Assembly: GCA_002697705.1 (NCBI GenBank) | Contig: NZXL01000045.1 | Location: 18,487 to 38,392, forward strand | Length of the DNA stretch: 19,906 bases | Direction of reading: 5' to 3' | Source: Methanobacteriota archaeon | GTDB lineage: Archaea; Thermoplasmatota; Poseidoniia; Poseidoniales; Poseidoniaceae | Part shown: positions 1-18,073 of the stretch, piece by piece | Numbering within the stretch: position 1 is the stretch's first letter | Layout: every line of letters starts with the position of its first letter | The notes under the pieces: model-generated | Databases searched by the model: none | Told to the model about the DNA's origin: nothing | The model's input: only the letters and a program-made list of their open reading frames with translations | Made by a program: the position numbers and the translations under genes

Positions 1-2493
1 CTTGCTGTAATGGGGCATGGAATCAATGATTTACTCCCTGATATTACAGTCGTTAATTCTGGATACGGGATAGACATCCCAATTCCTAGTGTCGGAGAGG
101 AAGTTCATTTCAATTCAAGAATTGAAAATACAGGTAATGTAAAATCAGATTTCTTTGATGTAGAGTTACAAGTTGATGGAGTTGTAGTAGAGACCAAAAA
201 TATGGATATCGGTGGAGGCACAGTCAAAGACCTATACTGGACTTGGACTCCACAAAGTTCAGGTTCGAAATTAATTTCTTTTATTATCGACCCAGCAAAT
301 GATGTGGAAGAGACTTTGGAAAACAATAATCGTCAAGATGTAATTGTAGAAGTCACTTCTCCCGGTGTTTCTCTTACTTCAACGCAAAGAATAATTTCAC
401 TCAATGACCCACTACAGAGTTCCACTTCTTGGCAAGTTAACTTGACCAATACTGGTTTACTTCCTACTAATGCTACTATCACTAAACAAGGAGTTACTTT
501 GGCTGAAACGGGAGAAAGTATCTCTTGGTATGTTGGAATTTCATCCACAAGTTTTTCTCTCCAAGGTCAAGAATCTACGCCTCTAAGTGTGACAATGATT
601 CACCCCGAAACACCGGCTAAGGGGAATTATCAAATTCAGTTACAGGCAACAGATACAGATAATGGAGTAACCAGTCAGTTCACATTGGAAATGGAAGTTT
701 TAGAAATTGCCAATATATTAGTTGAATATGATTATGAAATAATCCCAGTCCATCCAATAGACTCGAGTACATTCCCAATTTATGTACAAAATTTAGGTAA
801 TTCAAATTTAGAATACGACCTTCAAGTCCAGTCACCTGTTGGATGGAATGCTTTCTTTTCTCAGGGAGAGCCAATTGGTAAGTTTACTAGTACTGGGCCG
901 GTAGATGTCAATCTAGTTTCAACTTTGAACATCACTGTAGAGCCTCCTAACATTGTCCAAGATGCAGGCGTTGAAAAAATAATTTCAGTAAATATTCTTT
1001 CTCGAACTACACCGATTAAAAGTTGGCTAATCGAAATCCCAATCAAGGTTGAATCGGTCAAATCAGTCGAATTTGAACTAGACTCTCAGTTGAACAGTAT
1101 TATTCCAGGTTCAGAATTCGTCATGATATATACAATTGAAAACAAAGGTAATGTCGATGTTAGATTGTTCCCCTCATTTGTACTGCCTCAAGGAATTCAA
1201 AATACACAAGGTGTATCTCCATTCAATTTAGATATCGGTGAGTCAAAAGTTTACATTATCTCTCTTTATGCTGGTCCGAATTCAAAGAGTGGCCAAATAA
1301 CAGTGAATATGGATAACGGTTCAGAGAGATTCTCAACAACTTATGATTTGGTGGTTCAGATATTCGCAAAGCCAACGCTTCAATTCAGTAGATTGACTTA
1401 TTCAGATCTATCGACTTATTCTACATATTCTGGTTCTGGCAGCCATCCTGCAGGTCAAGTTTTGCAATTCGACTGGACACTAGGGAATTCGGCAGATATT
1501 GAATGGACGCCAATCCTCAGCATCCAAGAGGATGATGATTTATCTGTTCAATGTAGTAGTCTTTCGATACTAAATATGGATGACGCGATTGACCTTTCCT
1601 GTTTTGTTGAGATCGATTCTAATGCTGCTCCATTTTCAGAACCATCATTTACCCTTGAATTAAGCGGCGAAGGCGCTCAATTTTCAGAAACGGTCTCTCT
1701 CTATATTGCAAGCTTAGAGCAAGTATCTTGGCAAGGATTGTCATCTAATACGTTCAATACCGGTGAAGAGAAGTCGATTCAAATCATGGTGACTAATACC
1801 GGAAATATCCCGTTTAATAATCGCATTGAGGTGACATCTGAAGATGATTGGGATGTTGAAATCGTCGGTGAAGATATATTGGATTTACAGGTTGGAGAGT
1901 CGGCAAATGTACGATTCTTAATCACTGCAAATGAGCCAGGTTTCTCTTCCATTTCACTTGGATTTAAAACCGCAGAAATTTCAGAAGTCAGTAATTTTCA
2001 GTTCAATGTATCTTCTACTGGCGAATCTAAGGATTCAGCTAGTGGAGGTCTTTCGATTATAACATCATCTTTTTTGATTGTCGTTCTTTTGATAATAATT
2101 GGTCTAAGCGTGGCTTTACTAAAGCCAAAAAAGCAATCTATTGCGCCTCTCCCAATGCCAAATGCACTCAATCAGCCACATTTCAACAAACCAACAAACT
2201 CGCCGAAGTCTCTGCCAAATATTTCACCTGTTGCAATGGCCCCTCCAGCAATCGCCCAAAGCAGCCCATCGCCTATTGCTGCTAAACCGGCGGTAGTCGA
2301 GACAACTAGTGAACAAGAAAACTCTCCGCCGCCGATATGCTGGTCTTGTCGAAATCCAATAGAAGGGGCAATTCTAGGTTGCCCATCATGTGGCGCAAGA
2401 TATCATGGAGAAGGGCACGAAGCATGCGATATTTCTAAAATAGAAAACTGCGTTAGTTGCTCAGCACCAACTGCAGATTTTATTGAAGGATAG
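1..2493 (+). CDS. Large surface protein, CARDB-like ectodomain, one TM, C-terminal RING-like zinc module (5' partial)
   Basis: The frame is open from base 1 with no stop before the ATG at 10, so the gene very likely begins upstream; residues below are counted from that ATG. Residues about 5-105 read as a CARDB adhesion-type beta-sandwich (NTGN, then an EETLENNN strand end). Several similar repeats with NTG/NLGN/NKGN turns follow to about residue 675. One hydrophobic segment lies near 683-706, followed by Lys residues (LLKPKK), which puts the repeats outside and the C-terminus in the cytosol. A Pro/Ala/Ser-rich linker leads to a Cys/His module: C777, C780, C791, C794, H799, C806, C814, C817. 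Its CxxC...CPSCGxxYH...C...CxxC pattern resembles prokaryotic RING-finger/zinc-ribbon families. The function is not recognised; an adhesion or cell-surface role fits the family. The next gene, 43 bases on, has similar repeats and may be co-transcribed. Confidence 0.8.
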   Translation, partial: LAVMGHGINDLLPDITVVNSGYGIDIPIPSVGEEVHFNSRIENTGNVKSDFFDVELQVDGVVVETKNMDIGGGTVKDLYWTWTPQSSGSKLISFIIDPANDVEETLENNNRQDVIVEVTSPGVSLTSTQRIISLNDPLQSSTSWQVNLTNTGLLPTNATITKQGVTLAETGESISWYVGISSTSFSLQGQESTPLSVTMIHPETPAKGNYQIQLQATDTDNGVTSQFTLEMEVLEIANILVEYDYEIIPVHPIDSSTFPIYVQNLGNSNLEYDLQVQSPVGWNAFFSQGEPIGKFTSTGPVDVNLVSTLNITVEPPNIVQDAGVEKIISVNILSRTTPIKSWLIEIPIKVESVKSVEFELDSQLNSIIPGSEFVMIYTIENKGNVDVRLFPSFVLPQGIQNTQGVSPFNLDIGESKVYIISLYAGPNSKSGQITVNMDNGSERFSTTYDLVVQIFAKPTLQFSRLTYSDLSTYSTYSGSGSHPAGQVLQFDWTLGNSADIEWTPILSIQEDDDLSVQCSSLSILNMDDAIDLSCFVEIDSNAAPFSEPSFTLELSGEGAQFSETVSLYIASLEQVSWQGLSSNTFNTGEEKSIQIMVTNTGNIPFNNRIEVTSEDDWDVEIVGEDILDLQVGESANVRFLITANEPGFSSISLGFKTAEISEVSNFQFNVSSTGESKDSASGGLSIITSSFLIVVLLIIIGLSVALLKPKKQSIAPLPMPNALNQPHFNKPTNSPKSLPNISPVAMAPPAIAQSSPSPIAAKPAVVETTSEQENSPPPICWSCRNPIEGAILGCPSCGARYHGEGHEACDISKIENCVSCSAPTADFIEG

Positions 2494-2536
2494 CCCATTT
2501 TTAGTAATATTTCTATGAGCAACCGAGGATAGGCTT

Positions 2537-5500
2537 TTGATACTAAGTCTTCCACGGGGGTTCATGAACCCCCGGGAAAACACCCAACTTTCAACGCACC
2601 GTGGCGCGTTATTTCTCGTAATTCTAATGATGTTCTCCGTCTTACCTCTAATGGCTCCATCGGTCGCCGCCGATGGAAGTATCAGTCTAAATGTATCACC
2701 AAACTCTATGGAGGTCAACCCAGGGGAATCTGGAGAATACACAGTTGTAATTTTCAATACAGGTTCAGATCCAGTCACCGTGAACCTACAGGCATCAAAC
2801 GAACCAGGTGAAGATTGTAATGGTTTTACCACAACCATAGGGCAGATTCCTGGACAAATTGAATCGGGTTCTTCAGAAGAAACTACGATGAATGTAACAC
2901 TTGCTCAAACAGTTGAGCCAGACTCGGCTTGTGATACAACGGTTACTGCTACTATTACTGCGGTCATTGGCGCGCCAGGTGCAGAGATTCCAGAACCTTC
3001 CACTGAGACAGTCACCACAACTGCTGGTGATGGTTCAGGTAGTGCTTTGTTTGGAGTAGACCTTTATTTCGATAATGTCGAAGAAAGAAATACTCAGAAA
3101 AAAACGCTAGGTGCTGGCTCAGATATGGTTACTTACTTCATAACTGTTGAAAATACTGGTCAAACCAATCAGTCTATCGACCTGATTTTAGAAGAAGTGA
3201 CAGATTCTGGTTGTAATAATCCACAAGACCTCACAGTAACACTTAGCGACTCCCAAGTGGCTCTAGATGTAGAAGAGACCGAACAAATCACAGTCGAAGT
3301 CGAAGTTCCTGAAGGGCAACAAGCAAATGACTACTGTTGGGAAGTTACAGGTACTGTTTCAGGGTCTAACCCAGCACAAAATGCAACAGATACAGTAGAA
3401 TTCGAGTTGGAAGTTCCGGTATTGAAAGAATGTTCTATGACACTTTCCAAGACAACCCTGAACTTACAGCCTGAAGATGTTGGTACATTGACTGCCACTT
3501 TAAGCAATGAAGGAAACAGCGATTGGTCGGTTTCTATGTCAGTAACTGGAGACCCAGGCTCAGGAAATAACAAATGGGTTTCCTTCGATGGGCCTTCAAA
3601 TGGATTATTGCCTTACAACAGCGGTTCTGGGACAAAATCCTTTGATTTGGAAGTACAACCAGATGATTCACGAAGTGCAGGTTCTGAAACTCAAATCACA
3701 GTACAAGCAAAGGACGGAGGTACGCTAAAATGCACCAAACAATTTACTGTTGTTTTAGGACAGAGCTACGGAGCATCACTCAGTTTGCAGACCTCGAGTT
3801 TAGGACCTATTGAGCCAGGTGAAAATCAAACATCTAAAGTCACGGTCACAAATACAGGTAATGGTGAAGACACACTTCGTGTCACAGTCTCTTCTCCTCC
3901 ATCGGGTTGGAGCATTACTCTAGACAGATCATCGGTCAGCGTAGGTTCAAAACACGGCTCTAGTAAATCTGCCGAGGTATCCTTTACCGTTTCTGTACCA
4001 GAGGATGCACTGGCAACTGAAAGTATAGATTTGACCTTCTCCGTTTTGCCAAATGGCGGCGGTCAAGCATATCAAACAAAGATACTTTCAGTTACTGTCA
4101 AGGAAACTCATGGGATGGATGTTGAAAGAGGCGAAAATCAAACAGGCCGTTCAAATACAATCTTATTATTCCCAATAACGGTTGATAACCTAGGTAATAA
4201 TGAAGATAGTTTTAGATTCTATACCAAGAGAAATACAGAAAATTGGGAAACATGGTTCATGGATGAATCGGGCAATCAACAGACTCAATTTGATATTGGG
4301 GCTAGAGAGAGTAAAATTATCACTCTAAATGTTAGGGTCAAAGTAGGTACTGAGAATTGGGAGTTTACAGATATTGACGTCGAGATTACAAATCTTGGAG
4401 ATTCTAATACCGCTGATGAAAATCTCGATGGTTTGCCAGACAATAAGCGATTAGAAAAGTTTAGAGCGGTACGTTCAGATGTAAATTATTCTATGGATGT
4501 GCGCTTTGAAAAAGATACGCCGGGAGTCTCAATTGACAACCGCGTAACATCGATCATTTTACCTCCTGAGGGCGAAGTGATATTCGATTTATGGGTCGAA
4601 AATACGGGTGATGAAAATTATGATAATGCCGTCTTTGACATTAGTGGATTAGAAGGTTTAGCTACTCGCCAACTACTGTTGGACGGGGAAGTCGTAGAAA
4701 TAGATGGTAAATACAAGATTCTATCGGGTTATGGATTATGGAATTATACTACCAATTCATACCAACTTGATGACCAAGGTGAATTAATCCACTCATACTC
4801 ACAACAAGGAATTGAAATTGAAAAAGAGGATATAGGATTGATAGAACTGGAAGTTAGACCTTACAGGCAACTTTTCCAAATAAAAGTAGAGGTAAACCCT
4901 GGTGCAGTAACCGGTGATGGGGGCGCATTAGAAATTGTAGTTACAAGTGAATCTAATTCTGCTGACCGTTCAGGATTTACTTCTGTAAGTTTAGAGGTTC
5001 AGACAATCTATAATATTCAATTCCAATCCGATGTTGAGCTCCATTATACCCTAGAGTATCCAGATAAGAAAACAATAAATGTCGATGTGATCAATGAAGG
5101 AAATATTAGAACACAATTCATTGTTCTAAATCCTGAAGGCCTAAGAGGTTGGACGGTATCTATGGATTATACCAATGGCTCTTGTTCTTCTAATTCAGAA
5201 GGCCTAACCTGTTGGTTAGATGTTGGAGATTCTATCGGATTAGAGGTTAATGTTAGGCCTTCTTTTGAGGCAGAGGTTGAAGATAATTTCACCTTCACCC
5301 TATCTGTACAACCGATTGAAACCGGTGTTATCGATAGAGAGAATATCGAATTTTCAGTACTTGGAGAGCCTTATGCAGGAGCATTTGGACTTGGGATACA
5401 ACAAGAGCACATCAAGGCGGGAATGTACGTTCTAGTAGCAATAATTTTCCTTGGCGTCATCTATCAGGGTGCAAGACCTACGATAATGGAGATGGAAGCG

Positions 5501-6120: not shown

Positions 6121-6212
6121 CACTTGAAAAAAGCCGTATAGTTTGGCAACCCTTATTGAGGGGTAATTATTGGAAAGATTGCTGAGCGTATGCTTTGCAA
6201 TTGGGTGAAAAA
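6121..6212 (+). promoter_or_regulatory. Putative promoter and leader of the nuo operon
   Basis: This is the only sizeable gap before nuoA and so must hold the operon promoter if the operon is transcribed on its own. An A-rich CACTTGAAAA element starts at 6121, with GTATAG at 6136-6141. Either could be the BRE/TATA region, which would place transcription start roughly between 6150 and 6170. A 12-base element at 6147-6158 recurs inverted before the aIF1A gene. A GGGTGA ribosome binding site lies at 6203-6208. The exact TATA box cannot be fixed by eye. Confidence 0.35.
6147..6158. repeat. 12-bp element CAACCCTTATTG, inverted copy at 18100-18111
   Basis: CAACCCTTATTG here is the exact reverse complement of 18100-18111 (CAATAAGGGTTG), and the match extends one base further on one side. 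Both copies lie in short intergenic leaders, upstream of nuoA and of the aIF1A gene. A regulatory role is possible; chance is not excluded. Confidence 0.4.
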
Positions 6213-6698
6213 ATGTCCGGACTTGAATCGGTACCTAGTGCGTACCTTTCTATTGGCTTTTTGACGGTTGTAGGCATACTTATGCCACTTACAAATTTCA
6301 TCATAACTTGGGTGGTTAGGCCACGTGTAGACCCTGCTCGCCCACACATCACTCGCTCCTATCTTTTGGAAGGCTATGAGAAAGATCACAGTTTGTATCC
6401 TAGGAGATTGACAACCTTCGAATGTGGTAGTGAGCCGGTCGGCGATGCTATGATTCAATTTCACTTCCAATATTATTGGTATGCGATTATTTTCCTAGTG
6501 TTTGATGTAGCGTTTATGTTCCTTGTTCTTGGAGGAATGGTTGCATCTGATGCTACAGCACAAGACCTAGCAGAAAGCGCTAGAGAAAGCGCTGTTGCCA
6601 AGGCCAAGGACGCATTGATCGTCCTTAGCGCATTCTTTGCCACTATGTCGTTAGGCGTGTGGTATGTTTTCCGAAAGCGAGGAAGAATATACATTTGA
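6213..6698 (+). CDS. nuoA: Complex I subunit A (NuoA/FpoA-like), divergent
   Basis: NuoA is the ND3-type membrane subunit beside NuoH at the quinone end of complex I. The 161-residue product has three hydrophobic segments and the family block FECGSEPVGDA, followed by FxFxYYWYAIIFLVFDV. E70 and C71 of FECG and D98 of the FDxE motif are present, but the usual Glu two residues after that Asp is Ala (A100), and the following Pro-Trp is missing. The loop before the last membrane segment is lengthened by a helix-like, Ala/Glu/Lys-rich stretch (residues about 111-131). ATG 6213 is chosen because GGGTGA lies four bases upstream; a TTG at 6195 would add six residues with less support. It is the first gene of the operon, nine bases before nuoB. 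Confidence 0.9.
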   Translation: MSGLESVPSAYLSIGFLTVVGILMPLTNFIITWVVRPRVDPARPHITRSYLLEGYEKDHSLYPRRLTTFECGSEPVGDAMIQFHFQYYWYAIIFLVFDVAFMFLVLGGMVASDATAQDLAESARESAVAKAKDALIVLSAFFATMSLGVWYVFRKRGRIYI

Positions 6699-6707
6699 GG
6701 TGATTTA

Positions 6708-7301
6708 ATGGCTGACACAGGAGAGAATTTTGCTGCTTTCAATAGTAGGGCACTAGTCGAAATGGTTGGTGGTGTTACCGACGAAGCATTGAAAGTTACC
6801 AAAATCAAACAATTTCTAAGCGTTCTTGCTGGCAGATTTTTCAATTGGGCAGGTAGAAAATCACTGTTCACACTGCACTTGGGGATCAAGTGCTGTGCAA
6901 TCGAGATGGCTGCCGCTGCAACACCTAGATTCGATGGAGACAGATTCGGGGTACTTTTCCGTTCATCTCCTCGACAATCAGACGTTCTACTGGTAAACGG
7001 CCCAGTTTCTAAGAAATTTGCAGATAAAATCGTTCGCCTTTGGGAGCAAATGCCCGAACCAAAGTACTGTATTGCTATGGGTGAATGTGCTATTTCTGGT
7101 GGCCCATATTTCCAGTCTTACAATATCCTTGAAGGAGTCGACACAGTAATTCCAGTCGACGTCTATATCCCAGGATGCCCTCCAAGGCCAGAGGCTCTAA
7201 TCGATGGTTTTGGATTGCTACGCGAGAAGATTATCAGGATTGGCGGCGCTCCAAGTTCTGACAGAGAGAGCGAGAAGCCTTTGATCGTAGGAGATGAGTA
7301 A
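6708..7301 (+). CDS. nuoB: Complex I subunit B (NuoB), N2 cluster subunit
   Basis: NuoB carries the terminal 4Fe-4S cluster N2, which passes electrons to the quinone. The product has 197 residues. The ligands expected for N2 are all present: the tandem C62-C63 in GIKCCAIEM, C127 in GECAISGG and C157 in the PGCPPRPEAL motif. The Arg-containing TPRFDGDRFG and SPRQSD segments are also family hallmarks. The N-terminal 50 residues are more variable, as is usual. ATG 6708 follows GAGGTGAT at good spacing, and the SD overlaps the nuoA stop codon. The 3' end overlaps nuoC by eight bases, which suggests coupled translation of these adjacent peripheral-arm subunits. Confidence 0.97.
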   Translation: MADTGENFAAFNSRALVEMVGGVTDEALKVTKIKQFLSVLAGRFFNWAGRKSLFTLHLGIKCCAIEMAAAATPRFDGDRFGVLFRSSPRQSDVLLVNGPVSKKFADKIVRLWEQMPEPKYCIAMGECAISGGPYFQSYNILEGVDTVIPVDVYIPGCPPRPEALIDGFGLLREKIIRIGGAPSSDRESEKPLIVGDE

Positions 7302-7956
7302 TTTGGGCACAACAGTCACTCTATCACAAAACGAAGAGGCCGCCAATGAATGCTTAGAGGCAATCAATTCACGGTTCTCTGGTTCTGGAGTAGTAGCATC
7401 GGTTGAAAGACACTCGAATGCTAAGAAATATGCATTCATTAGAATCACCACGCCACCTCAACATTGGCAAGCATTAGCCAAGTGGATGCGTTTTGATTTA
7501 GGAGTCAATTATTGTTCGATGGTTACAGGAACTCATTTCCCCGAAGGCCCTCCAGAAAGAGGTTGGGAAGTCGCTTACCACTTCCTTAGACAACCTATTT
7601 CCAACCAATTACCAGACACTCACACGGTCTATGTGGCTGAGAAGTTGGATGGGCAATTGGTTCCAATGGAATTCGAAGTATTGATTCCTCTTGAGAATAA
7701 TGATTCTCCAATAGTGCCAACCGTTCAACATATTTGGGGCGGAGCAGACTGGAATGAGAAAGAGACTTGGGATTTGGTTGGAATAAAGTTCGAGGGTCAC
7801 AAAAATATGCACAGAGTACTCAATCCTCACGATAGCCCTGAAGGTTTCCACCCTCTTCAAAAACAACATAAAATTCGATACCATGATCATAACGAAATGT
7901 ATGATGATGCTCAAGGCTTTGGCCGAAAACCAGCGGATGAGGGCCGTGTCAAGTGA
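7294..7956 (+). CDS. nuoC: Complex I subunit C (NuoC, 30-kDa type)
   Basis: NuoC is a non-cofactor subunit that binds NuoD in the connecting (Q) module. The 220-residue product shows the respiratory-chain 30-kDa signature near its C-terminus, ADWNEKETWDLVGIKFEGH, followed by an HRVLNPHD segment and GFHPLQK. It is separate from nuoD; some bacteria fuse the two. The start ATG 7294 lies inside the end of nuoB, with GTAGGAG just upstream. The short acidic/basic tail ends nine bases before nuoD. Confidence 0.95.
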   Translation: MSNLGTTVTLSQNEEAANECLEAINSRFSGSGVVASVERHSNAKKYAFIRITTPPQHWQALAKWMRFDLGVNYCSMVTGTHFPEGPPERGWEVAYHFLRQPISNQLPDTHTVYVAEKLDGQLVPMEFEVLIPLENNDSPIVPTVQHIWGGADWNEKETWDLVGIKFEGHKNMHRVLNPHDSPEGFHPLQKQHKIRYHDHNEMYDDAQGFGRKPADEGRVK

Positions 7957-7965
7957 GGCGATATC

Positions 7966-9105
7966 ATGGCACAAATGTGGATTACAATGGGGCCTCAGCA
8001 CCCAATGACTCACGGATTATGGACTCTGAGAGTCAAAGTAGATGGTGAAACAGTTGTTGATACCGAGGCTGAATTAGGATATATTCATCGAGGCGTTGAG
8101 AAGATTTGCGAATCTAGAGATTTCACTCAAGTTACTCCTTACTGTGACAGACTTTGCTATGTTAGTGCAATGACTTGGGCTAACTCCTACATCTATGCTG
8201 CAGAAGACCTTCTAGAGGCTGAAGTGCCCGAAAGAGCTGAATATATTCGTTTGATTTCAGCTGAATTACAAAGACTTGCATCACATTTGATGTGGCTTGG
8301 AGCGTTTGGCCCAGATATTGGAAATTTAACTTTGATGACTTGGTGTATGCGTGACCGTGAAATGTTCCTTGATTTACTTCAAGAACTGGGCGGTTCAAGA
8401 ATGCATTACAACTATCCAAGAATCGGTGGCGTAAAGCGAGATATCCCAATTGGGTTTGCCGATAGAATGATTGCAAAAGTAAAACTATTCGAACGCAGAA
8501 TCGATGAGTATGAAATGATGCTTGACGAATCAACAATTTGGTTGGTTAGATTGCAAGGTGTTGGTTATGCTAATGCCGAAGAAATGGTTGAAGCCGGTGT
8601 TTCAGGGCCTAACGTCCGTGCCGCTGGTGTCAACTATGACGTACGATGGGCACATCCATATTCAGTATATGATGAAGTAGACTGGGAGCCAGCAGTTGAA
8701 AAACCAACATCGGTAAAAGGCGCAGACTGTTATGACCGTTACCGTGTAAGGATGGAAGAGATGCGCCAATCATGTAGAATGGTTTTAGACGCCATCGAGA
8801 AAATCCCTGGTGGAAAGAATACTAATTACGCAAATGGCGATGAGATGATTTTCCAAAAGGCGCCAACACGTGCCCCAGAAGGCGCTACTGGATTTAGCAA
8901 TTATGAGTGCACTAGAGGCGCTTCTCAATTCTATATCCAAGGTGGAGGCGAAGGCCGTGGAAAGAATCCATACCGCCTTTCAATCCGTTCACCTATGTTC
9001 ATTACAATTCCATTCGTTGCAAAGACAATGATAGGATACAAGGTTGCAGATATACCGGCAATTATGGGCAGTTTCGACCCATGTATCGGGGAGACAGATC
9101 GTTGA
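7966..9105 (+). CDS. nuoD: Complex I subunit D (NuoD, 49-kDa type)
   Basis: NuoD forms the quinone pocket with NuoB and is related to the large subunit of NiFe hydrogenases. The 379-residue product starts with ITMGPQHPMTHG, the quinone-site loop; H12 and H16 are the family His residues. The region PYCDRLCYVSAM supplies Y65, which aligns with the quinone-binding Tyr; the preceding residue is Cys64, where Asp is common. The middle has ELQRLASHL and GGSRMHYNYPRIGGV, and the C-terminus is the conserved GSFDPCIGETDR. No hydrogenase-type CxxC metal ligands are seen, as expected for complex I. ATG 7966 follows a GAGGCGAT SD that overlaps the nuoC stop. Confidence 0.97.
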   Translation: MAQMWITMGPQHPMTHGLWTLRVKVDGETVVDTEAELGYIHRGVEKICESRDFTQVTPYCDRLCYVSAMTWANSYIYAAEDLLEAEVPERAEYIRLISAELQRLASHLMWLGAFGPDIGNLTLMTWCMRDREMFLDLLQELGGSRMHYNYPRIGGVKRDIPIGFADRMIAKVKLFERRIDEYEMMLDESTIWLVRLQGVGYANAEEMVEAGVSGPNVRAAGVNYDVRWAHPYSVYDEVDWEPAVEKPTSVKGADCYDRYRVRMEEMRQSCRMVLDAIEKIPGGKNTNYANGDEMIFQKAPTRAPEGATGFSNYECTRGASQFYIQGGGEGRGKNPYRLSIRSPMFITIPFVAKTMIGYKVADIPAIMGSFDPCIGETDR

Positions 9106-9114
9106 GGTGATATC

Positions 9115-10617
9115 ATGGATGATGCATATGACTTACGAGGACTAATTTTCGACCTTGTCGATAAGACAATTCCACCTCTACTCGAGGGTACGCCACTTGA
9201 AGAAAGTACAGGGCAAATCGTATTTGGTCTAGCAACATTCGCAGTCGTAAATATTGTGTTTTTGATGCTGTTTTTCTCACAATTCGCAATTCTTTGGATT
9301 GAGAGAAAAGCCGTTGCAAGAATGAATGATAGAAGAGGTGCAACGACCGCTCTACGTTCTTTGTGGGTCGGTGAAAACGGTGTTACAGCAGGTGAATGGT
9401 GGAATATGTTGCCATTTGGACTTGGTAAACCGGTCGGCGCAGTCAATAAATGGCTCAATAAAAAATTCGGCAACAGAGACGAAAAGTTCCCAACCGTTGA
9501 TAGAGTAAACAACAGGTCATGGATGGGATACTCGATATTCCCGGGTTTCTTCCAAAATGTTGCCGACGGTATGAAATTCCTACTAAAAGAGCACATGGTG
9601 CCACAAAGAGCAGATAAATTGATCTTTGAAGTCTCACCTTTCCTAATCGTTTCTTCAACCCTACTAATACTGGGTATTATTCCTCTCTCAAGTGGAATTT
9701 ATGCAACCAACCCTGAACTTTCAATTCTTTATGCAATCGCCATCTTTGGTATTGCTCCAATAGGCGTATTCTTCGCCGGATGGTCTTCCAATAACAAGTA
9801 TACATTGATTGGCGGAATTCGTTCTGCTGCACAATTAACTGCTTACGAGATTCCACTTCTTCTAACATTACTTTCTGTCGCAGTTCTATCAGGTACCTTC
9901 AACATAATTGACAGCGTACATTTCCAACATTCTGCCGGCGCATGGAATCTTTTCTTGATGCCTCTTGGTGCTGGATTATTCCTTTTGACTATGATAGCAG
10001 AGGTTGAACGTGTTCCTTTCGATATGCCAGAAGCGGAAGCCGAACTTGTAGAAGGGTGGTGGACAGAATATGGTGGCATGAGATTCGGGATGTTATTCAT
10101 GGCTGAATATATCCGAACATATGCAGCTTGTTTCCTTTTCACACATTTCTTCCTTGGAGGATGGCACCTACCATTCCAAGGCCTAATCGGCTCGATACCA
10201 GTTCTTGGCGATCTTTACCTTTTGATTCCAGGCGCAGTAGTTGTTCTAATCAAGTCTTGGTTGGTTTTCCTGCTGGTATTTGTTTGGGCTAGATTCTCTT
10301 TAGCGAGAATAAGGACAGACCAAATCCTCGAATTCGGTTGGAGAATCCTGTTGCCATTGGCAGTCTTCCAACTAATTCTTTCAGCAGTTTACCGATTGTA
10401 TCTATTTGACCCTTCAGCAATGGATGATGGAACCTATGGAGGTACATCATGGGACGCTCTAGGAATACCATTCTTGATTCCAGCAATTACTACAGTCATA
10501 TGGCTAGGAATATTCTTCCTAATGCTAAATGATGAAGATAAGAGTGGAAATACGGAACGTATGTTCCATGTGTATACAGATAAGCCAGCGGGAACATATG
10601 TCCCGGGGCAGGAGTGA
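9115..10617 (+). CDS. nuoH: Complex I subunit H (NuoH) with large first-loop insertion and extra C-terminal TM
   Basis: NuoH is the ND1-type membrane subunit that joins the peripheral and membrane arms and forms the quinone entry channel. At 500 residues it is much longer than the usual 320-350. Hallmarks are present: WIERKAVARMNDRRG after the first TM (E63-G75), VADGMKFLLKEHMVP (149-163), and the acidic loop EVERVPFDMPEAEAELVEG beginning near E296. Between G75 and Q147, where the family normally has about ten residues, there are about 70, rich in Trp, Asn, Lys and Gly. After the usual last helix (LPLAVFQLILS) there is an additional hydrophobic segment near 443-466 and a polar tail. ATG 9115 has the GAGGTGAT SD overlapping the nuoD stop. 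Confidence 0.95.
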   Translation: MDDAYDLRGLIFDLVDKTIPPLLEGTPLEESTGQIVFGLATFAVVNIVFLMLFFSQFAILWIERKAVARMNDRRGATTALRSLWVGENGVTAGEWWNMLPFGLGKPVGAVNKWLNKKFGNRDEKFPTVDRVNNRSWMGYSIFPGFFQNVADGMKFLLKEHMVPQRADKLIFEVSPFLIVSSTLLILGIIPLSSGIYATNPELSILYAIAIFGIAPIGVFFAGWSSNNKYTLIGGIRSAAQLTAYEIPLLLTLLSVAVLSGTFNIIDSVHFQHSAGAWNLFLMPLGAGLFLLTMIAEVERVPFDMPEAEAELVEGWWTEYGGMRFGMLFMAEYIRTYAACFLFTHFFLGGWHLPFQGLIGSIPVLGDLYLLIPGAVVVLIKSWLVFLLVFVWARFSLARIRTDQILEFGWRILLPLAVFQLILSAVYRLYLFDPSAMDDGTYGGTSWDALGIPFLIPAITTVIWLGIFFLMLNDEDKSGNTERMFHVYTDKPAGTYVPGQE

Positions 10618-10627
10618 GGTGAAAAAT

Positions 10628-11602
10628 ATGCCAATGCATCCACACGCAAAACCGAATTTTAGAAACCTATTTTGGTACCCGTTTAAGATTACTTTGATTA
10701 CAGCATTACGAACCTTCCCGATTTTCGGTAGGTTGTTTGGAAAGAGGCTTTCTGGTGGTTATCACAATACTACTCACCCGGAATTTTTGGATGATGGTTC
10801 TGCAGCGAGAGCTTCAAAGAGTTCACAGTTCAATGATATTTCACAACAGGAATTCGCTCCTGACAGAGTAACTTCAGACCTTTTCCCAACTCTTTGGAAA
10901 CCTCAAACAGTCCAATATCCGTATGAAAGACTTGAAGATATGGAGCCATGGCTTTTCGTCCCAGGCAACTATAACGGAAGAATTGGTGTAATTTGGGAGA
11001 CTTGTACTGCTTGTAAGTTGTGCGTAACGGCTTGTCCAAATGATTGTCTTCACATGACAACCGAACTAAGAGTAGACGTTCTTGATGGTGCAGAAGGCGA
11101 ACACGGAGGAATGGGTTCGGAATTAGAAGTCGGAGGATTTGCGGCAAAACAAATCGAAGAAGTAGCCGAGACTCTAAATGACTTCAATCACGTAACTGCA
11201 CACTCTGACACTCCAGACCAGTGGAGATTTGCTGAAGTTCTTGACCTATCTGGAAGCACTGCTACAGTACGTTGGAATGATTCAGGCGCTGAACAAGAAG
11301 TCGAAACATCTGAATTATTTGTTGCAGATGACCAAATCGTATCTGGTAGGATTGACTTAGGGCGATGTATGTTCTGTGGACTATGTATGGAAGCATGCGG
11401 CTTTACTTCATTCTTCATGACCAATGAATATGATGGTATGTCCGGCTTTTCTCGACAAGACCTTTGGTTTGATGCTAGTAGAACTAGAGTCTTGCCTTCG
11501 GTTCATCAAGAGGCAGTCGATTCTGAATTAGCAAAGCGCGCTAACAAAGAGCGTGATAAGAGAGCAAAGAAAGCAGCTAGGGCTGCTAAGGAGAGTGCTT
11601 GA
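10628..11602 (+). CDS. nuoI: Complex I subunit I (NuoI, 2x 4Fe-4S) with inserted domain between the clusters
   Basis: NuoI carries the two ferredoxin-type clusters that bring electrons to NuoB. The first motif is C126-xx-C129-xx-C132-xxx-C136-P and the second C247-xx-C250-xx-C253-xxx-C257, the latter followed by Gly instead of Pro. These 110 intervening residues compare with about 30-40 in typical NuoI. The extra part has an acidic helix-like stretch (about 155-190) and a beta-rich piece (199-236, with TATVRWNDSG) that resembles an SH3/Tudor-like fold. The N-terminus is also extended, and the C-terminal tail is Lys/Ala-rich. Length is 324 residues against roughly 130-220 usual. ATG 10628 is chosen because GAGGTGA lies just upstream, overlapping the nuoH stop; in-frame sequence from 10529 lies within nuoH. 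Confidence 0.93.
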   Translation: MPMHPHAKPNFRNLFWYPFKITLITALRTFPIFGRLFGKRLSGGYHNTTHPEFLDDGSAARASKSSQFNDISQQEFAPDRVTSDLFPTLWKPQTVQYPYERLEDMEPWLFVPGNYNGRIGVIWETCTACKLCVTACPNDCLHMTTELRVDVLDGAEGEHGGMGSELEVGGFAAKQIEEVAETLNDFNHVTAHSDTPDQWRFAEVLDLSGSTATVRWNDSGAEQEVETSELFVADDQIVSGRIDLGRCMFCGLCMEACGFTSFFMTNEYDGMSGFSRQDLWFDASRTRVLPSVHQEAVDSELAKRANKERDKRAKKAARAAKESA

Positions 11603-11603
11603 T

Positions 11604-11879
11604 ATGGACGTAGGAGCAATTGTTGAGGCGGGTGTTTTCTTCCTTTTTGCAACGATCACTATTGGTGGGGCATTAGGATTAATTCTCGCTCAAAGAGTTG
11701 CTCACTCCATGCTTTCACTCATTTTTTGTTTTATGGCGGTTTCAGGAATCTTCATTCTTTTAGGCGCTGAATTTTTAGCAGCGATTCAAATTCTTGTTTA
11801 TTTAGCAAGTGTGGGGTTGGTTGTACTATTCGGTATTATGCTTACTAGAAGACAAATACTTGAGGAGGATTTTGAATGA
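11604..11879 (+). CDS. nuoJ: Complex I subunit J, N-terminal half (NuoJ1/FpoJ-like)
   Basis: NuoJ is the ND6-type membrane subunit. This 91-residue product has three hydrophobic segments and the NuoJ signature around LLGAEFLAAIQILVYLASVGLVVLFGIML, which corresponds to its third helix with the pi-bulge region; A-E-F and Q-I-L-V-Y are typical. It ends at LTRRQILEEDFE, where a full NuoJ would continue into helices 4-5. The rest is encoded by the next gene, which overlaps by four bases (ATGA), so this is a natural split and not obviously a frameshift. The start ATG 11604 lies one base after the nuoI stop, with AAGGAGAG upstream. The ORF extends back into nuoI, but that part is not NuoJ-like. Confidence 0.9.
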   Translation: MDVGAIVEAGVFFLFATITIGGALGLILAQRVAHSMLSLIFCFMAVSGIFILLGAEFLAAIQILVYLASVGLVVLFGIMLTRRQILEEDFE

Positions 11880-12145
11880 AGTTCCTGTCTTTAGTAACTA
11901 GAATTGGTCTTCTCGGGCTTGGCATGATTCTTGTTTCTGTACTTAGTGCAGATGAAGTCTGGGATAATTCAAGTGAGAATGAACCGACAACCAATGCTCT
12001 TGCAGACATTATGCTGAATGAATGGGCATTACCATTACTGGTTCTTGGAATTTTAATGTCTGTTGCAATGATTGGGGCAGCATATCTAGTTCGTGATGAA
12101 AGAAGAGAAAATCTTCTTTGGGAATTTGGAGGTGAAGAAGAATGA
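11876..12145 (+). CDS. Complex I subunit J, C-terminal half (NuoJ2/FpoJ2-like)
   Basis: The 89-residue protein has two hydrophobic segments (about 5-23 and 50-70), separated by a polar acidic loop. It ends in a charged tail (VRDERRENLLWEFGGEEE). Length, position between nuoJ1 and nuoK and two-helix topology match the C-terminal part of NuoJ, which is also a separate gene in Methanosarcina fpo operons (FpoJ2). Sequence similarity alone is weak, as usual for this part of ND6-type proteins, so the assignment rests mainly on context. It overlaps nuoJ1 and nuoK by four bases at each end (ATGA), pointing to translational coupling. Confidence 0.75.
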   Translation: MKFLSLVTRIGLLGLGMILVSVLSADEVWDNSSENEPTTNALADIMLNEWALPLLVLGILMSVAMIGAAYLVRDERRENLLWEFGGEEE

Positions 12146-12444
12146 TTGATCCAGCATGGGTTTCTGCACTTTCCGCACTTCTGTTTGTTATTGGACTTGG
12201 CGGGGCTTTCACTCGTAAGAATGCCATCATCGTATTGATGTGTATTGAGTTGATGCTGAATGCGGCAAATATGCAATTTGCAGCCGCTGCAGTTCACCAC
12301 GGAGATGCCACAGGATGGATTTACACTATTTTTGCAATTGCTATTGCTGCAAGCGAAGTCGCAATAGGATTGGCGATTTTCCTTGCTATGTATGGTAAGC
12401 ATGAATCGATATCATTGGACGATGTAGACGTCTTGAGGAACTGA
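12142..12444 (+). CDS. nuoK: Complex I subunit K (NuoK)
   Basis: NuoK is the small ND4L-type subunit of the proton-transfer path. The 100-residue length is standard. Three membrane segments are visible, and both membrane glutamates are present at the same numbers as in Escherichia coli: E36 in CIELMLNAANMQF and E72 in AASEVAIGLAIF. This supports a working ion-transfer path. The start overlaps the previous gene by four bases. The acidic C-terminal tail ends six bases before nuoL, and a GAGGTGAT SD overlaps the stop codon. Confidence 0.97.
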   Translation: MIDPAWVSALSALLFVIGLGGAFTRKNAIIVLMCIELMLNAANMQFAAAAVHHGDATGWIYTIFAIAIAASEVAIGLAIFLAMYGKHESISLDDVDVLRN

Positions 12445-12450
12445 GGTGAT

Positions 12451-14715
12451 ATGATGGCAAGTAGTTCAGATGTTATACTCGACAGTGAAATGGTTCAATA
12501 TGCACCACTAATCATTCTTTTACCAATGTTAGCATTCCCGGTGATTTTATTCCTGGGTCGTGTATTCAATAAGAATCCATTTTGGAAGAATAATTTGAAA
12601 GAAGGGGGATTAATTGCTTTACCAGTAATGGCTGCGAGTTTGATTATCTCTCTTCTATTGATCAAAGACCACATTGGTGGTTTTGCTGGAATAAAAGATT
12701 CAATCAATCTTCTTTGGGTTAATACCACTGTTTGGGATGGAGGCGTGCTTGAACCAGTAAGTCTTGGATTTGGAATTTACATCGACCACGTTACTGTGAT
12801 GCTACTATTTGTTGCTTCATTCCTTTGTCTTCTAATCAATATATTCAGTGTTGGTTACATGAACACCGACCCGATTAATGATAATAGAAACCACCGTTTC
12901 TATGCAGAGTTCGTCCTATTCTGTTCAGGAATGCTAGGGATGGTTCTTGCAGATTCATTCCTTTGGCTATTTATCTTCTGGGAAATTATGGGTCTCTGTT
13001 CTTATCTTCTAATCGGATTTTACTATGAACGCCCAAGTGCTGCTTATGCCGCAAAGAAGGCTTTCCTAACCACTCGTATTGGCGATGTTTTCCTTGTTAT
13101 TGGATTGGTGATGATGTGGGATATCTTTGGTTCGCTTGATTATGATGTTATTTTCAGTGCTGTTGAGGATAAAGAATTCATGGCAGGAGTATCTTCTAGT
13201 ACCCTACAATGGGCACTTGGAATGATGTTTATTGGAGCAGTTGGTAAATCTGCACAATTCCCATTACACGTTTGGTTGCCAGATGCTATGGAAGGACCAA
13301 CACCAGTATCTGCACTTATTCACGCTGCAACCATGGTTAACGCTGGACTTTACTTGGTTGCTAGAATGTTCCCATTCTTTGGAGCCGAAGCACTTAGCGG
13401 CGACCTTGTTGACTTAGCATTCATCATCGCATTAATCGGTGGTATTACTGCGGTTATGGCAGCAGCAATTGCCTTTGTACAAAATGATCTGAAGAAGGTT
13501 TTAGCATATTCGACAATGAGTCAATTAGCCTATATTTTCACAGGACTTGGTTGTGCAATGTATCTTGCTAATACCTTGGATTGGCATAATGATAGTGATG
13601 CTCATTACATTGTTGTTGTAGCATTTGGAGCGGCATTATTCCATCTATTCAATCACGCGATGGCAAAGGGGATGCTGTTTATGGCAAGTGGATCAGTGAT
13701 TCACGAAGTTCATCATGCACACCATCACTTACACCATGACGATCATGGAGATGGGCATCATGACGACCATCATGATGATGACTTTGATGCACAATCCATG
13801 GAAAATATGGGTGGACTTGCATCAAAGATGCCACTTACAGCAACAGCTATGCTAGTTGGTTCAGCCTCAATTATGGGTCTCCCATTCATTGGAGGATTTT
13901 GGTCTAAAGAGGGAATCATTGCTAATGCTTGGAGAGTCGCTCAAGATGACCCAAGATTCCTACTTCCTGCATTGTGCGTATTAATCGGCGCTGGAATGAC
14001 TGGTTTCTATATGTCAAGAATGTGGCTAAAGACATTTGCTGGTAAGCCAAATAACGAGGTTGCAGCTCATGTAGGTCCAACAAATACATGGATAAAGATA
14101 CCACTTTTCACTCTAACTTTCGTAACTCTTTCAGCAATTATACTTGCAGGAATGGGCTTCACTCATTGGGCACCAGACAGTGAATACGGTTTCATGTCTG
14201 AAAAAGGCTTAGTGGAAGGAATTGCATATGAATTGGACCATGCATTTGCCAATGGCGATCCATTCTTCTTCATATTGACATATTTGGCTATAGCTATTGG
14301 AGCAGTATTAGGCCCAGGTTTGGCAATGTCACTTTATGGCGGTAATTTAGCACAAGGTGAACAAACCAAACCTTGGATGAAGCCTGTAATCAAATTGAAT
14401 GCTTGGGTTTATGCCCGTTTCAACTTCAATAATAGTGCGATCGCTCAATCTAGTCTTACTAGGGCGCTCGAGCAAAGATTGTACATTGATTACTACTATG
14501 ATATGGCCATGCTCAAGATTGTAGCAGCCTTCTCCAACAAGTCAGCAGAAGCAGATAGTTCAGTAATAGATGGAACCATCAAGAATATCGAAAGAGGGTC
14601 TCAGTCTTTATCCAGTGTAGTTCGCTCTTTGACAACTGGTTCTGCCAGAGACTACATTTTGATGGTCTCAGTTGGAACATTAGCGATTTTCTTCTTATTA
14701 TGGGGGGTGGCATGA
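12451..14715 (+). CDS. nuoL: Complex I subunit L (NuoL), antiporter-like, with His-rich loop
   Basis: NuoL is the distal antiporter-like ion-pumping subunit with the long lateral C-terminal helix. The 754-residue length is at the upper end of the family. Key charged residues are visible: E178 in FWEIMGLCSYLLIGF, K266 in GKSAQFPLHVWLPDAMEGPTP, K348/K349 in NDLKKVLAYSTMSQL, and K486 in GGFWSKEGII. Between GSVIHEV and MENMGGLASKMP is a His/Asp-rich insertion: 13 His in residues 418-441, followed by an Asp run. It could bind metal, but this is not shown. The C-terminal third has amphipathic and membrane segments consistent with the lateral helix and anchor. Two adjacent ATGs (12451 and 12454) could serve as start; the SD fits either. 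Confidence 0.96.
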   Translation: MMASSSDVILDSEMVQYAPLIILLPMLAFPVILFLGRVFNKNPFWKNNLKEGGLIALPVMAASLIISLLLIKDHIGGFAGIKDSINLLWVNTTVWDGGVLEPVSLGFGIYIDHVTVMLLFVASFLCLLINIFSVGYMNTDPINDNRNHRFYAEFVLFCSGMLGMVLADSFLWLFIFWEIMGLCSYLLIGFYYERPSAAYAAKKAFLTTRIGDVFLVIGLVMMWDIFGSLDYDVIFSAVEDKEFMAGVSSSTLQWALGMMFIGAVGKSAQFPLHVWLPDAMEGPTPVSALIHAATMVNAGLYLVARMFPFFGAEALSGDLVDLAFIIALIGGITAVMAAAIAFVQNDLKKVLAYSTMSQLAYIFTGLGCAMYLANTLDWHNDSDAHYIVVVAFGAALFHLFNHAMAKGMLFMASGSVIHEVHHAHHHLHHDDHGDGHHDDHHDDDFDAQSMENMGGLASKMPLTATAMLVGSASIMGLPFIGGFWSKEGIIANAWRVAQDDPRFLLPALCVLIGAGMTGFYMSRMWLKTFAGKPNNEVAAHVGPTNTWIKIPLFTLTFVTLSAIILAGMGFTHWAPDSEYGFMSEKGLVEGIAYELDHAFANGDPFFFILTYLAIAIGAVLGPGLAMSLYGGNLAQGEQTKPWMKPVIKLNAWVYARFNFNNSAIAQSSLTRALEQRLYIDYYYDMAMLKIVAAFSNKSAEADSSVIDGTIKNIERGSQSLSSVVRSLTTGSARDYILMVSVGTLAIFFLLWGVA

Positions 14716-16344
14716 TTGAATGATTGGATTTCGATTCCATTGGTTGCTTTCCCACTAATTAGCAGTATGATTTTACTAGCTTTTGTTTCCAATGCTTCCC
14801 CAAGAGTTCGTGAAGGACTAGTTAAGCCAATTAGAATGGCTTGTTTGGTTTTCTCACTACTCCTTCTTGTTTTGACAACTGGAATGTTCTTCAAGTATTT
14901 CGGAGAAGTTTCTTGGATGGACATTCAGTTCAATGACTATGAGTACTTCGTAAGTTATGCTTGGATTGATTCACTTGGAATAAACTGGACAGTTGGATTA
15001 GATGCTCTATCTTTCCCAATGGTTTGGTTGACTACATTTTTACTACCAGTGACAATAATTGCTACTTGGAATGAAAAGTATGGCGCTACATATTTCCCTC
15101 TACTATTGATGATGGGTGGGGCTTTGATTGGCGTCTTTGTATCTCTGGACTTATTCATGTTCTATGTGTTCTGGGAACTTACACTAATTCCAATGTTCTT
15201 CTTGATTCTAAAGTGGGGTGGAGCAGATAGAAAGTATGCTGCCCAGAAATTCTTCATCTATACATTTACTGCATCTGTAGTAATGCTTCTAGGTCTAATT
15301 ACTCTATACTTCTTACAAGAACCTAACACCTTGGCTTCCGCTGGCTCAATGACAGGTCGTAGTTTCTCGATTCCTGAATTGATCGATACGGCAAGAACTG
15401 CCAATGTAGGTGACAACTGGTTCTTGGGCAAGACAATGCAGAATATATTATTCGTAATGTTGATGATTGGTTTCTTGGTAAAATTGCCAGCAGTACCTTT
15501 CCACACTTGGCTGCCTGATGCTCACGTTCAAGCACCTACTGGTGGTTCAATGCTTCTAGCAGGTGTAATGCTGAAGATGGGTGCATACGGAATGTTTAGA
15601 TTACCTCTAAGCCTATTCCCTCATGCATTATACCATTTCCAACTAGCATTGATGATTATTGGAATGGTATCTCTTGTATGGGGTGCAATTGTTTGTTTGG
15701 GTCAAACTAACTTGAAGAAAATGGTTGCTTATTCATCGGTTTCTCACATGGGTGTAATTCTAATTGGTATTGCTACAATGCAACCTATGGGTTGGGCAGC
15801 CGCACTATTCATGATGTTCGCTCACGGTATTATCAGTCCAATGCTATTCGCTGTTTGTGGTGCATTCAAACATCATTATCATAGCATGGAAATTGGTGCA
15901 ATGCGTGGAATGGCAAAACATTCACCATGGCTTGCAACTTCCATGATGTTTGCTTGGATGGCTTCTTTGGGTCTTCCATTACTTGCAGGTTTCGTTGCAG
16001 AAATTATGATGCTTATCGCTTTGTGGCATATGATTTCTTTGGATGGATGGAGTATTTGGTGGATGGTTGGTCCAGCACTGGTTCTTGCTCTGACTGCGGC
16101 TTACTATCTATGGTCGATGCAGAGAACAATTTTCGAAGGCGGTGATGACACCCAACCACCAGCAAATATGGTAGGTAAGGTAATTCCAGACATATCCAAT
16201 CCGGAAAAGTTTGCAATGCTAATATTAGCCTTCTTTACAATTTTATTCGGTGTAATGCCATGGATTGCTTTAGACATGATGGATGATTGGACCAAACAAA
16301 TTTTCAACGGTTTGATATTATTTGTCGGAAAGGGAGGCGCTTGA
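14716..16344 (+). CDS. nuoM: Complex I subunit M (NuoM), antiporter-like, TTG start
   Basis: NuoM is the middle antiporter-like pumping subunit. The 542-residue protein has the family motifs VGLDALSFPMVWLTTFLLP, FWELTLIPMFF (E154), VKLPAVPFHTWLPDAHVQAP (K256), VMLKMGAYGMFR (K287), NLKKMVAYSSVSHMG, and AGFVAEIMML (E429), so the charged residues expected for proton transfer are present. The start is TTG at 14716, directly after the nuoL stop with no spacer. No in-frame ATG occurs before residue 18, which is already inside the first membrane segment, and a G-rich SD-like stretch (14702-14710) precedes it. ATGs at 14712 and 14720 are out of frame. Confidence 0.96.
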   Translation: MNDWISIPLVAFPLISSMILLAFVSNASPRVREGLVKPIRMACLVFSLLLLVLTTGMFFKYFGEVSWMDIQFNDYEYFVSYAWIDSLGINWTVGLDALSFPMVWLTTFLLPVTIIATWNEKYGATYFPLLLMMGGALIGVFVSLDLFMFYVFWELTLIPMFFLILKWGGADRKYAAQKFFIYTFTASVVMLLGLITLYFLQEPNTLASAGSMTGRSFSIPELIDTARTANVGDNWFLGKTMQNILFVMLMIGFLVKLPAVPFHTWLPDAHVQAPTGGSMLLAGVMLKMGAYGMFRLPLSLFPHALYHFQLALMIIGMVSLVWGAIVCLGQTNLKKMVAYSSVSHMGVILIGIATMQPMGWAAALFMMFAHGIISPMLFAVCGAFKHHYHSMEIGAMRGMAKHSPWLATSMMFAWMASLGLPLLAGFVAEIMMLIALWHMISLDGWSIWWMVGPALVLALTAAYYLWSMQRTIFEGGDDTQPPANMVGKVIPDISNPEKFAMLILAFFTILFGVMPWIALDMMDDWTKQIFNGLILFVGKGGA

Positions 16345-16345
16345 T

Positions 16346-18073
16346 ATGTCTACATTGAAAACTGTTGAACCATTTGGTGATGGTTTCATCTCTGCACTTT
16401 GTCCTGAATTAATTTTATTTGCAGGTTTAATATTACTAATTGTAGTTCCTAATCTAGGGGATGGAAAGTTCAGAATTCCAGGAACTCAAACCAGAATACC
16501 TTGGTTATTAGGCGGTCAAAGATTCAAGTTGACTAGCGACCCAAGATTGCCTTCTTGGATTGCAGTCATTACCATTGGTACATCCTTTGTCATGACCATT
16601 CTTTCTTTCCAAGATGGAGTGGAAAGAACTGCTATTGTTAGCGAAGGAGGCACTCAAATTCTAATGATAAATGCCTTTAGCAGGGTCTTTGAATTGATTT
16701 TCTTTGGTGCTTTGACCCTAGCAGCATTCGCTAGCATGAATAGGTTAGATGTCAAAGGAATAGGTGCGAGGTTATCCACTGATGAATTATACAATAATAG
16801 AAGACAGGGTGATTTCTATATTTTGATGATCACCTGTGCTCTTGGAATGTCTATCGTCGCTCTAGCCCAAGACTTGTTTGTACTATTCATCGGGCTTGAG
16901 TTAGCATCTTTCTCAACCTATGTTCTTGTTGCATTCTTCAAGGAGTCCAAGGCTGGAACTGAGGCGGGAATGAAATATTTCATCGTTGGTTCGGTCGCTT
17001 CAGGAGTAGGTTTGTATGGATTATCAATGTTGTATTTGTGGGCAGGTTCTCTACAATTAGATGTACTGGCAACAACATTTGCCCAATCTGGAAGTGATGC
17101 ACTTCCAATGATTGGTATTGGATTTGTTTTGGTTGGCTTTGGTTTCAAAGTTAGCGCAGCACCTTTCCACTTTGCAGCACCAGATGCCTATTCAGGAGCA
17201 AGCAGTCCAGTGGCGGGCGTTCTTGCCACAGCGAGCAAAGCAATGGGTATCGTTGGTCTTTTGCGAATACTGTTGATAGTTGCAGCACCAGAGTCTAGTG
17301 AAGATGGTACAGTTTGGCTTGTTTGTCTTGGATTATTATCTGTAATTACAATGACTTGGGGCAACTTAGCTGCTCTTGGCAGTACTAATCCTAAGAGGAT
17401 GCTTGCTTACTCTTCTGTAGCCCATGCAGGTTACATGCTTGCAGCGATTACCGCTATTGGAGCATGGAATTGGGATGAAACATTATCAGGAGATCCTGGA
17501 GAAGCGGCAGTGGTTGTATTGACCGCATTGATGTTCCACTTGATGGTATTGGTAGCATTCAAATTGGGTGCATTCCTTGTCTTATCTGTTCTTGAATCAG
17601 AAGGTGGCGGCTCGAGATTATCTTCTCTTGGTGGGCTTGCCAAGAGAGAACCATTCCTTGCAGTTGCCATGTTTATCTTCATGATTTCATTAGCAGGTGT
17701 CCCACCTCTGGCAGGATTTATGTCGAAATTACTAGTGATAATGGGAATTGTTAAAGTTGCTCTTGGTGACATGAGTGAGGCATTAGCAACAGGTAGCGAA
17801 CTCGGATTATCTGATGTTCATTGGGTCTGGTGGTTAGCATTAGCCATGGTCATCAATTCAGCAATTTCAGTTTACTACTACCTGAGAATTGGAGTCGTAA
17901 TGTTCTTTGAGGAACCTGAAGAAGGTAAAACAGGTCCTCTTCCAGCAGGATGGCAAGTTCGCTTTGCAATTCTTGCCTGTTTACTTGCTACAGTATTCAT
18001 GGGAGTTGCAAGCGATAAGATTCTTGAAATCTGTGAAATTGCAGCACAAAGTTTCAATTATAATTGGGCATAA
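16346..18073 (+). CDS. nuoN: Complex I subunit N (NuoN), antiporter-like
   Basis: NuoN is the antiporter-like pumping subunit next to NuoK. The 575-residue product shows FIGLELASFSTYVLVAF (E185), GFGFKVSAAPFHFAAPDAY (K268), VLATASKAMGIVGLLR (K298) and NPKRMLAYSSVAHAGYML (K350), all hallmarks of this paralogue; the FHxxxPDxY form separates it from NuoL/NuoM, which have WLPDA. Fourteen or so hydrophobic segments are visible. The ATG at 16346 lies one base after the nuoM stop, with AGGGAGG just upstream. The frame is open further back, but that would run into nuoM. It is the last nuo gene and ends with TAA, followed by a 65-base gap. Confidence 0.96.
   Translation: MSTLKTVEPFGDGFISALCPELILFAGLILLIVVPNLGDGKFRIPGTQTRIPWLLGGQRFKLTSDPRLPSWIAVITIGTSFVMTILSFQDGVERTAIVSEGGTQILMINAFSRVFELIFFGALTLAAFASMNRLDVKGIGARLSTDELYNNRRQGDFYILMITCALGMSIVALAQDLFVLFIGLELASFSTYVLVAFFKESKAGTEAGMKYFIVGSVASGVGLYGLSMLYLWAGSLQLDVLATTFAQSGSDALPMIGIGFVLVGFGFKVSAAPFHFAAPDAYSGASSPVAGVLATASKAMGIVGLLRILLIVAAPESSEDGTVWLVCLGLLSVITMTWGNLAALGSTNPKRMLAYSSVAHAGYMLAAITAIGAWNWDETLSGDPGEAAVVVLTALMFHLMVLVAFKLGAFLVLSVLESEGGGSRLSSLGGLAKREPFLAVAMFIFMISLAGVPPLAGFMSKLLVIMGIVKVALGDMSEALATGSELGLSDVHWVWWLALAMVINSAISVYYYLRIGVVMFFEEPEEGKTGPLPAGWQVRFAILACLLATVFMGVASDKILEICEIAAQSFNYNWA

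Follow-up and report, generated by a model that had tools for sequence, protein, structure and literature searches.

A conserved acidic insert, predicted to form a small barrel, at the position of the ferredoxin-binding hairpin in NuoI of Poseidoniales

In bacteria and archaea, the 11-subunit complex I-like enzymes are encoded by nuoABCDHIJKLMN genes without nuoEFG. Passages of PMC11237513 and PMC3750248 describe archaea as commonly lacking NuoEFG, and the direct donor to the 11-subunit enzyme is called an open question in a passage of PMC11238625. NdhI of the cyanobacterial and chloroplast NDH-1 also works without NuoEFG, and the same hairpin joins its 2 cluster motifs. In NdhI of Thermosynechococcus elongatus (T. 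elongatus), C73 ends the first motif and C103 starts the second; K86, K89, and K91, which lie between them, are the ferredoxin contacts according to a section of PMC7021789, and a passage of PMC6992706 describes the hairpin as essential for ferredoxin binding. The same section of PMC7021789 assigns the ferredoxin interface to NdhV and NdhO rather than to NdhS, and in one cited NDH-1 passage ferredoxin is touched by none of NdhS, NdhO, and NdhV. Here, we analyzed the NuoI protein encoded in a stretch of 19,906 nucleotides (the window; positions 18,487 to 38,392 of contig NZXL01000045.1, assembly GCA_002697705.1) from an archaeon of the order Poseidoniales (family Poseidoniaceae), in which an extra segment occupies the homologous hairpin. 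Named homologues of the protein likewise point to Poseidoniales (marine group II). Among the open-licence PMC papers listed in our searches, none described such a NuoI insert.

The window NuoI contains 2 CxxCxxCxxxC motifs, and all 8 cysteines are invariant across an alignment of 84 sequences (A3). The original prediction, which covered 11003..11401, exactly C126 to G258 of NuoI, held that the 2 motifs are 110 residues apart where about 30 to 40 are normal; the separation was confirmed by measurement, and relatives from outside the order mostly have 24 to 42. To define the spacing, we used the query (P0001) together with the best 120 of 311 matches, yielding 121 proteins, 5 of which had a single intact motif and were left out of the count (P0044, P0064, P0088, P0089, and P0111). 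All 116 homologues with both motifs have a spacing of 110, 111, 112, or 113 residues (63, 7, 45, and 1 proteins, respectively). Outside the order, the loop measures 24 to 42 residues in 12 NuoI loci that were read, and 45 of 48 further proteins have 2 motifs, with 41 of these likewise at 24 to 42; the remaining 4 were discounted, 3 being truncated copies in which the wrong motif pair was measured (54, 33, and 33) and 1 a polyferredoxin (47). A long spacing shared by most archaeal NuoI proteins would have spoken against the original prediction; the Thermoplasmatota NuoI sampled from outside the order lack it. The Cys-Gly reported at the end of the second motif is right for the window NuoI but is a lineage trait: proline follows the motif (window position 11399-11401, residue 258) in none of the 63 proteins with a spacing of 110 (G 37, N 10, S 8, D 4, K 3, H 1) and in 50 of the 53 with a spacing of 111 to 113.

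The distribution of the insert was assessed in 292 genomes of the phylum, comprising 81 of the order and 211 others. At E ≤ 1e-10, a search with the whole NuoI matched 79 of the 81 order genomes (42/42 in one family and 37/39 in the other) and 0 of the 211 others. A profile restricted to the insert (A2, built from 24 of 43 non-redundant inserts) recovered the same 79 genomes at E ≤ 2.7e-30, and nothing better than E 0.0275 was obtained in the 211 genomes from outside the order (9 genomes, E 0.0275 to 0.246). In the 2 unmatched order genomes, G061 and G161, the NuoI-family matches were weak and ferredoxin-like (best E 9.4e-7 and 8.4e-8). The long spacing is characteristic of the lineage rather than accidental. 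The best NCBIfam model for the window NuoI, TIGR01971, scored 64.6 bits in 2 stretches, below its cut-off of 113.05; because this cut-off was reached in just 1 of 20 genomes of the phylum, it excludes most NuoI proteins of the phylum.

The 4 best PDB sequence matches of the NuoI family are NdhI chains, and in NCBIfam, general NuoI models score ahead of ndhI for the window protein. Since K86, K89, and K91 of NdhI lie in the homologous inter-motif loop, the proposal that the insert sits where electron input would dock is well supported, by homology. The whole loop of the window NuoI has a net charge of -18. Across the 116 order-type proteins, the loop is negative in every sequence (mean -18.6, range -24 to -10), against a mean of +1.8 outside it; the corresponding loop values are 0.1 (range -4 to +6) for short-loop relatives (n = 28) and +3.0 (range +2 to +4) for relatives of a sister-family protein, L003 (n = 10), with P0158 and P0163-P0169 excluded from these sets. 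The docking hairpin is reversed in sign in this order.

The insert is under purifying selection, weaker than that on the core. Across 20 genomes (17 from the genus and 3 from the family), the ratio of nonsynonymous to synonymous polymorphism per site (pN/pS) was 0.208 for the insert (residues 151-236), 0.176 for the barrel described below, 0.036 and 0.063 for the 2 parts of the core, and 0.197 for the N-terminal extension, values to be read as a relative measure only, because synonymous sites are near saturation (pS 0.7 to 0.8). Insert residues that are invariant or at least 90% conserved in an alignment of 62 of the 121 proteins (A1) include G161, G163, G169, H192, F201, E203, W216, and D218, with G169, H192, and W216 being invariant. 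The N-terminal extension (residues 43-90) is moderately conserved.

In the structural model, residues 201-230 form a small barrel (predicted local distance difference test, pLDDT, of 91 to 92), and the NuoI core was poorly modelled. The beta-rich piece with an SH3/Tudor-like look, proposed earlier for residues 199-236, corresponds to model strands 199-208, 211-216, 222-226, and 231-242 of a predicted SH3/Tudor-like barrel. Most of the Foldseek rows are barrels of the SH3, Tudor, PWWP, KOW, and myosin-N types. Two further proposals held in part. The helix-like acidic stretch is acidic (net charge of -10 over residues 151-198) but has a single short predicted helix (177-183), and of residues 140-245, envisaged as a separate domain, the smaller part from about 161 to 236 was modelled with any confidence. 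With a barrel predicted and the sequence conserved across the order, the insert is probably ordered rather than only disordered. No Pfam family matched it above the cut-off, the weak matches being SH3_VIII-1_N (E 0.0041), Sororin_C (0.0087), Myosin_N (0.014), DUF6679 (0.017), PCB_OB (0.018), and NdhO (0.1), and comparison of the insert profile with PDB sequences gave a single meaningless match (E 0.1).

Two small subunits of NDH-1 invite comparison with the barrel. NdhS, which a section of PMC7021789 describes as SH3-like and located in a groove of NdhI, resembles it in kind, and its profile (PF11623) gave no match to the barrel (hhalign probability 0.6). NdhO of T. elongatus NDH-1 is the first Foldseek row (6nbq_O; E 0.02, root-mean-square deviation 8.9); the match agrees in barrel class, from which membership in the NdhO family does not follow. 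NdhO was not among the VIA-align rows, an absence that does not exclude it. The NdhO profile (PF11910) matched 1 of 24 insert members with a best E of 0.1 (0.12 in another Pfam scan), and Myosin_N (5 members) and DUF6679 (4 members) gave more matches, and better ones. Against a profile of 80 NdhO sequences, the barrel scored 27.2 in hhalign over 16 columns (hairpin motif GEVxDxxGDxAxVxW), compared with at most 18.3 in 300 column shuffles, which were run for NdhO alone, itself chosen after appearing in library-wide searches. Comparison scores were 24.6 over 31 columns for DUF6679, a family present in 15 of 15 cyanobacterial genomes searched, and 16.2, 11.0, and 10.7 for the controls HypC, NdhS, and KOW, respectively. 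The shared piece is a hairpin of a kind that is, in our view, common among such barrels. We keep NdhO homology as a hint, given that DUF6679 scores almost as high and the match covers 16 columns; on these sequence comparisons, common descent of the barrel with NdhO is possible and unproven.

The nuoI gene is flanked by nuoH and nuoJ within a nuoABCDHIJKLMN-type cluster, and no nuoE, nuoF, or nuoG was seen within the window's cluster (source genome assembly, 1.6 Mb, 74% complete). The genome-wide search for the NADH module covered NuoF of the 3 subunits NuoE, NuoF, and NuoG: PF01512 was detected in 6 of 60 order genomes and not found in 54. Two of the 6 loci were inspected; in each, a NuoE-NuoF-like fusion is next to a formate-dehydrogenase-like gene (both named by reading), for which reason we did not score the NuoF matches as a complex I module. 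The F420 module (PF04432) was detected in 0 of 40 order genomes, which disfavors an F420 donor, and POR_N of the 2-oxoacid oxidoreductases is present in 40/40. Gene content narrows down the donor, which the original prediction left unknown: it suggests, rather than proves, ferredoxin, which would be the simplest donor.

A candidate for this role is an RnfB-like ferredoxin of 110 residues with a basic N-terminal tail, present in 59 of 60 order genomes. Its best NCBIfam match is rnfB (48.9 bits, below the 68.7 cut-off), and a passage of PMC6336850 reports RnfB in many families of marine group II (MGII) and terms the MGII complex I canonical. Over 30 loci from the 59 genomes, the ferredoxin has a mean charge of -2.0, made up of +3.0 in the tail and -5.0 in the remainder; script-assigned starts cut 6 rows to 90 to 91 residues and lengthened 2, and the 6 shortened rows lower the tail charge. 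In both genomes that were read, the gene adjoins one for a CCG-domain protein.

We read the insert as a module, built into NuoI, for donor docking or gating in a complex I driven by ferredoxin, a reading to which we assign a probability of roughly 0.55. Reduced ferredoxin from 2-oxoacid oxidoreductases would most likely feed the enzyme, docking at the NuoI hairpin, and electrons would then pass through the 2 NuoI clusters and the NuoB cluster to quinone, the cluster order being that given in a section of PMC7021789. The barrel on the hairpin would act as a fixed acidic contact surface or gate, replacing the separate props of NDH-1 (NdhV, NdhS, and NdhO), and such a charge-inverted module would favor donors whose surface is neutral or basic. 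A narrower proposal, that the acidic barrel is the receptor for one dedicated RnfB-like ferredoxin with a basic N-terminal helix, forming a charge-inverted single-chain counterpart of the ferredoxin site made up of NdhI, NdhS, NdhV, and NdhO in cyanobacteria, perhaps from a captured NdhO-like barrel, strikes us as unlikely. The CCG-domain neighbor is an equally natural partner for the RnfB-like ferredoxin. The main weakness of a docking or gating module is that the acidic surface would repel ordinary acidic ferredoxins. It is because of this repulsion that a basic-tailed ferredoxin is interesting and that other roles, as a structural cap or as a latch, stay in contention.

As a cap, the barrel would shield the exposed top of the Q-module, in the place of NuoG, or stabilize assembly together with other extensions, with no part in donor choice. 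The enlargement of several subunits (the long NuoH loop and NuoI residues 43-90) would fit such a role, as would the lower constraint on the insert than on the core; yet the insert occupies precisely the loop in which NdhI has its ferredoxin contacts, and negative charge in 116/116 sequences is not required of a mere cap, so that we regard this role as possible but somewhat unlikely. As a latch, the acidic barrel would regulate access to the clusters by binding either the C-terminal tail of NuoI, which is basic, or a basic patch on NuoC or NuoD. It would have a partner at hand in residues 293-324 (net charge of +4, K/R-rich) and a parallel in cyanobacteria, where addition of NdhO lowered ferredoxin-dependent activity according to a section of PMC7021789. 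The tail, however, is modelled as a helix only (290-323), and we judge a latch to be distinctly improbable. Least of all do we expect a neutral lineage-specific insertion or disordered filler: a pN/pS of 0.21, a near-fixed length of 110 to 113, the 3 invariant residues, and a confident predicted fold all speak against it, although constraint below that of the core and the lack of a Pfam family above cut-off are what filler would show.

Coordinates of the features are collected below. Further complex I features were noted. The first cytosolic loop of NuoH after DRxG (9340-9561, residues ~76-149) is long in the order, with 73 to 74 residues in order sequences versus 38, 37, and 13 in 3 from outside; of 8 order sequences, 4 were measured by script and 4 were judged similar by eye. 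NuoL (12451-14715) contains a His/Asp-rich stretch, HEVHHAHHHLHHDDHGDGHHDDHHDDD, with a metal-binding appearance. At a separate locus (L013:1417-3312), NuoI is part of a 632-residue frame together with a GltD/NfnB-like flavoprotein (named by reading), a fusion that suggests NAD(P)H input without NuoEFG.

Table 1. Features of the nuo cluster, of NuoI, and of the candidate ferredoxin loci. Positions refer to the window unless a locus is given.
Feature	Position	Strand	Remarks
nuoA, B, C, D, H, upstream of nuoI	6195..10617	+	All five by Pfam
NuoI, 324 residues, 11-subunit-type complex I subunit	10628..11599	+	ATG at 10628
N-terminal extension of NuoI, residues ~43-90	10754..10897	+	Gap in shorter NuoI proteins (A3)
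First 4Fe-4S motif, CTACKLCVTACP, C126-C136	11003..11035	+	All four Cys invariant in A3
Extra segment in inter-motif hairpin, residues ~148-236	11069..11335	+	Boundaries approximate
SH3/Tudor-like barrel strands, residues 199-236	11222..11335	+	Predicted model
Second 4Fe-4S motif, CMFCGLCMEACG, C247-C257, then Gly	11366..11398	+	Four Cys invariant in A3
nuoJ (two frames), K, L, M, N, downstream of nuoI	11553..18073	+	Pfam for the first J frame and K; reading of the frames for the second J frame, L, M, and N
RnfB-like ferredoxin and CCG-domain (HdrD/GlpC-like) protein	L153:1059-1391 and 1436-2797		
RnfB-like ferredoxin and CCG-domain (HdrD/GlpC-like) protein	L154:1183-1515 and 1520-2860		

What is new here is a lineage-wide insert in an otherwise known complex I subunit, not a new type of system. 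Poseidoniales are among the commonest archaea of the surface ocean. A passage of PMC6336850 states that the order has no cultured isolates; one short segment and one candidate ferredoxin offer a concrete handle that could be tested by expression without culturing the organism.

Compared with the described systems, the cluster agrees with those of the 11-subunit enzymes in its gene order without nuoEFG but differs from the 11-subunit enzymes sampled elsewhere in the phylum, whose NuoI loops are short. In a different family of this class (f3), NuoI already has a loop of 42 residues; unlike the window NuoI, these proteins have no barrel, a basic loop, and 2 further C-terminal 4Fe-4S motifs. Four CxxCxxCxxxC motifs were observed in NuoI of this family and in that of L011 (L003, L005-L009, and L011; P0152-P0157, P0159, P0165, and P0166), and the 2 extra motifs are possibly another input device. 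Relative to NDH-1, the inter-motif loop of T. elongatus NdhI comprises 29 residues with a net charge of +1, whereas that of the window NuoI comprises 110 residues with a net charge of -18 and a predicted barrel. NdhO and NdhS are separate proteins in NDH-1, whereas here the predicted barrel lies within NuoI itself.
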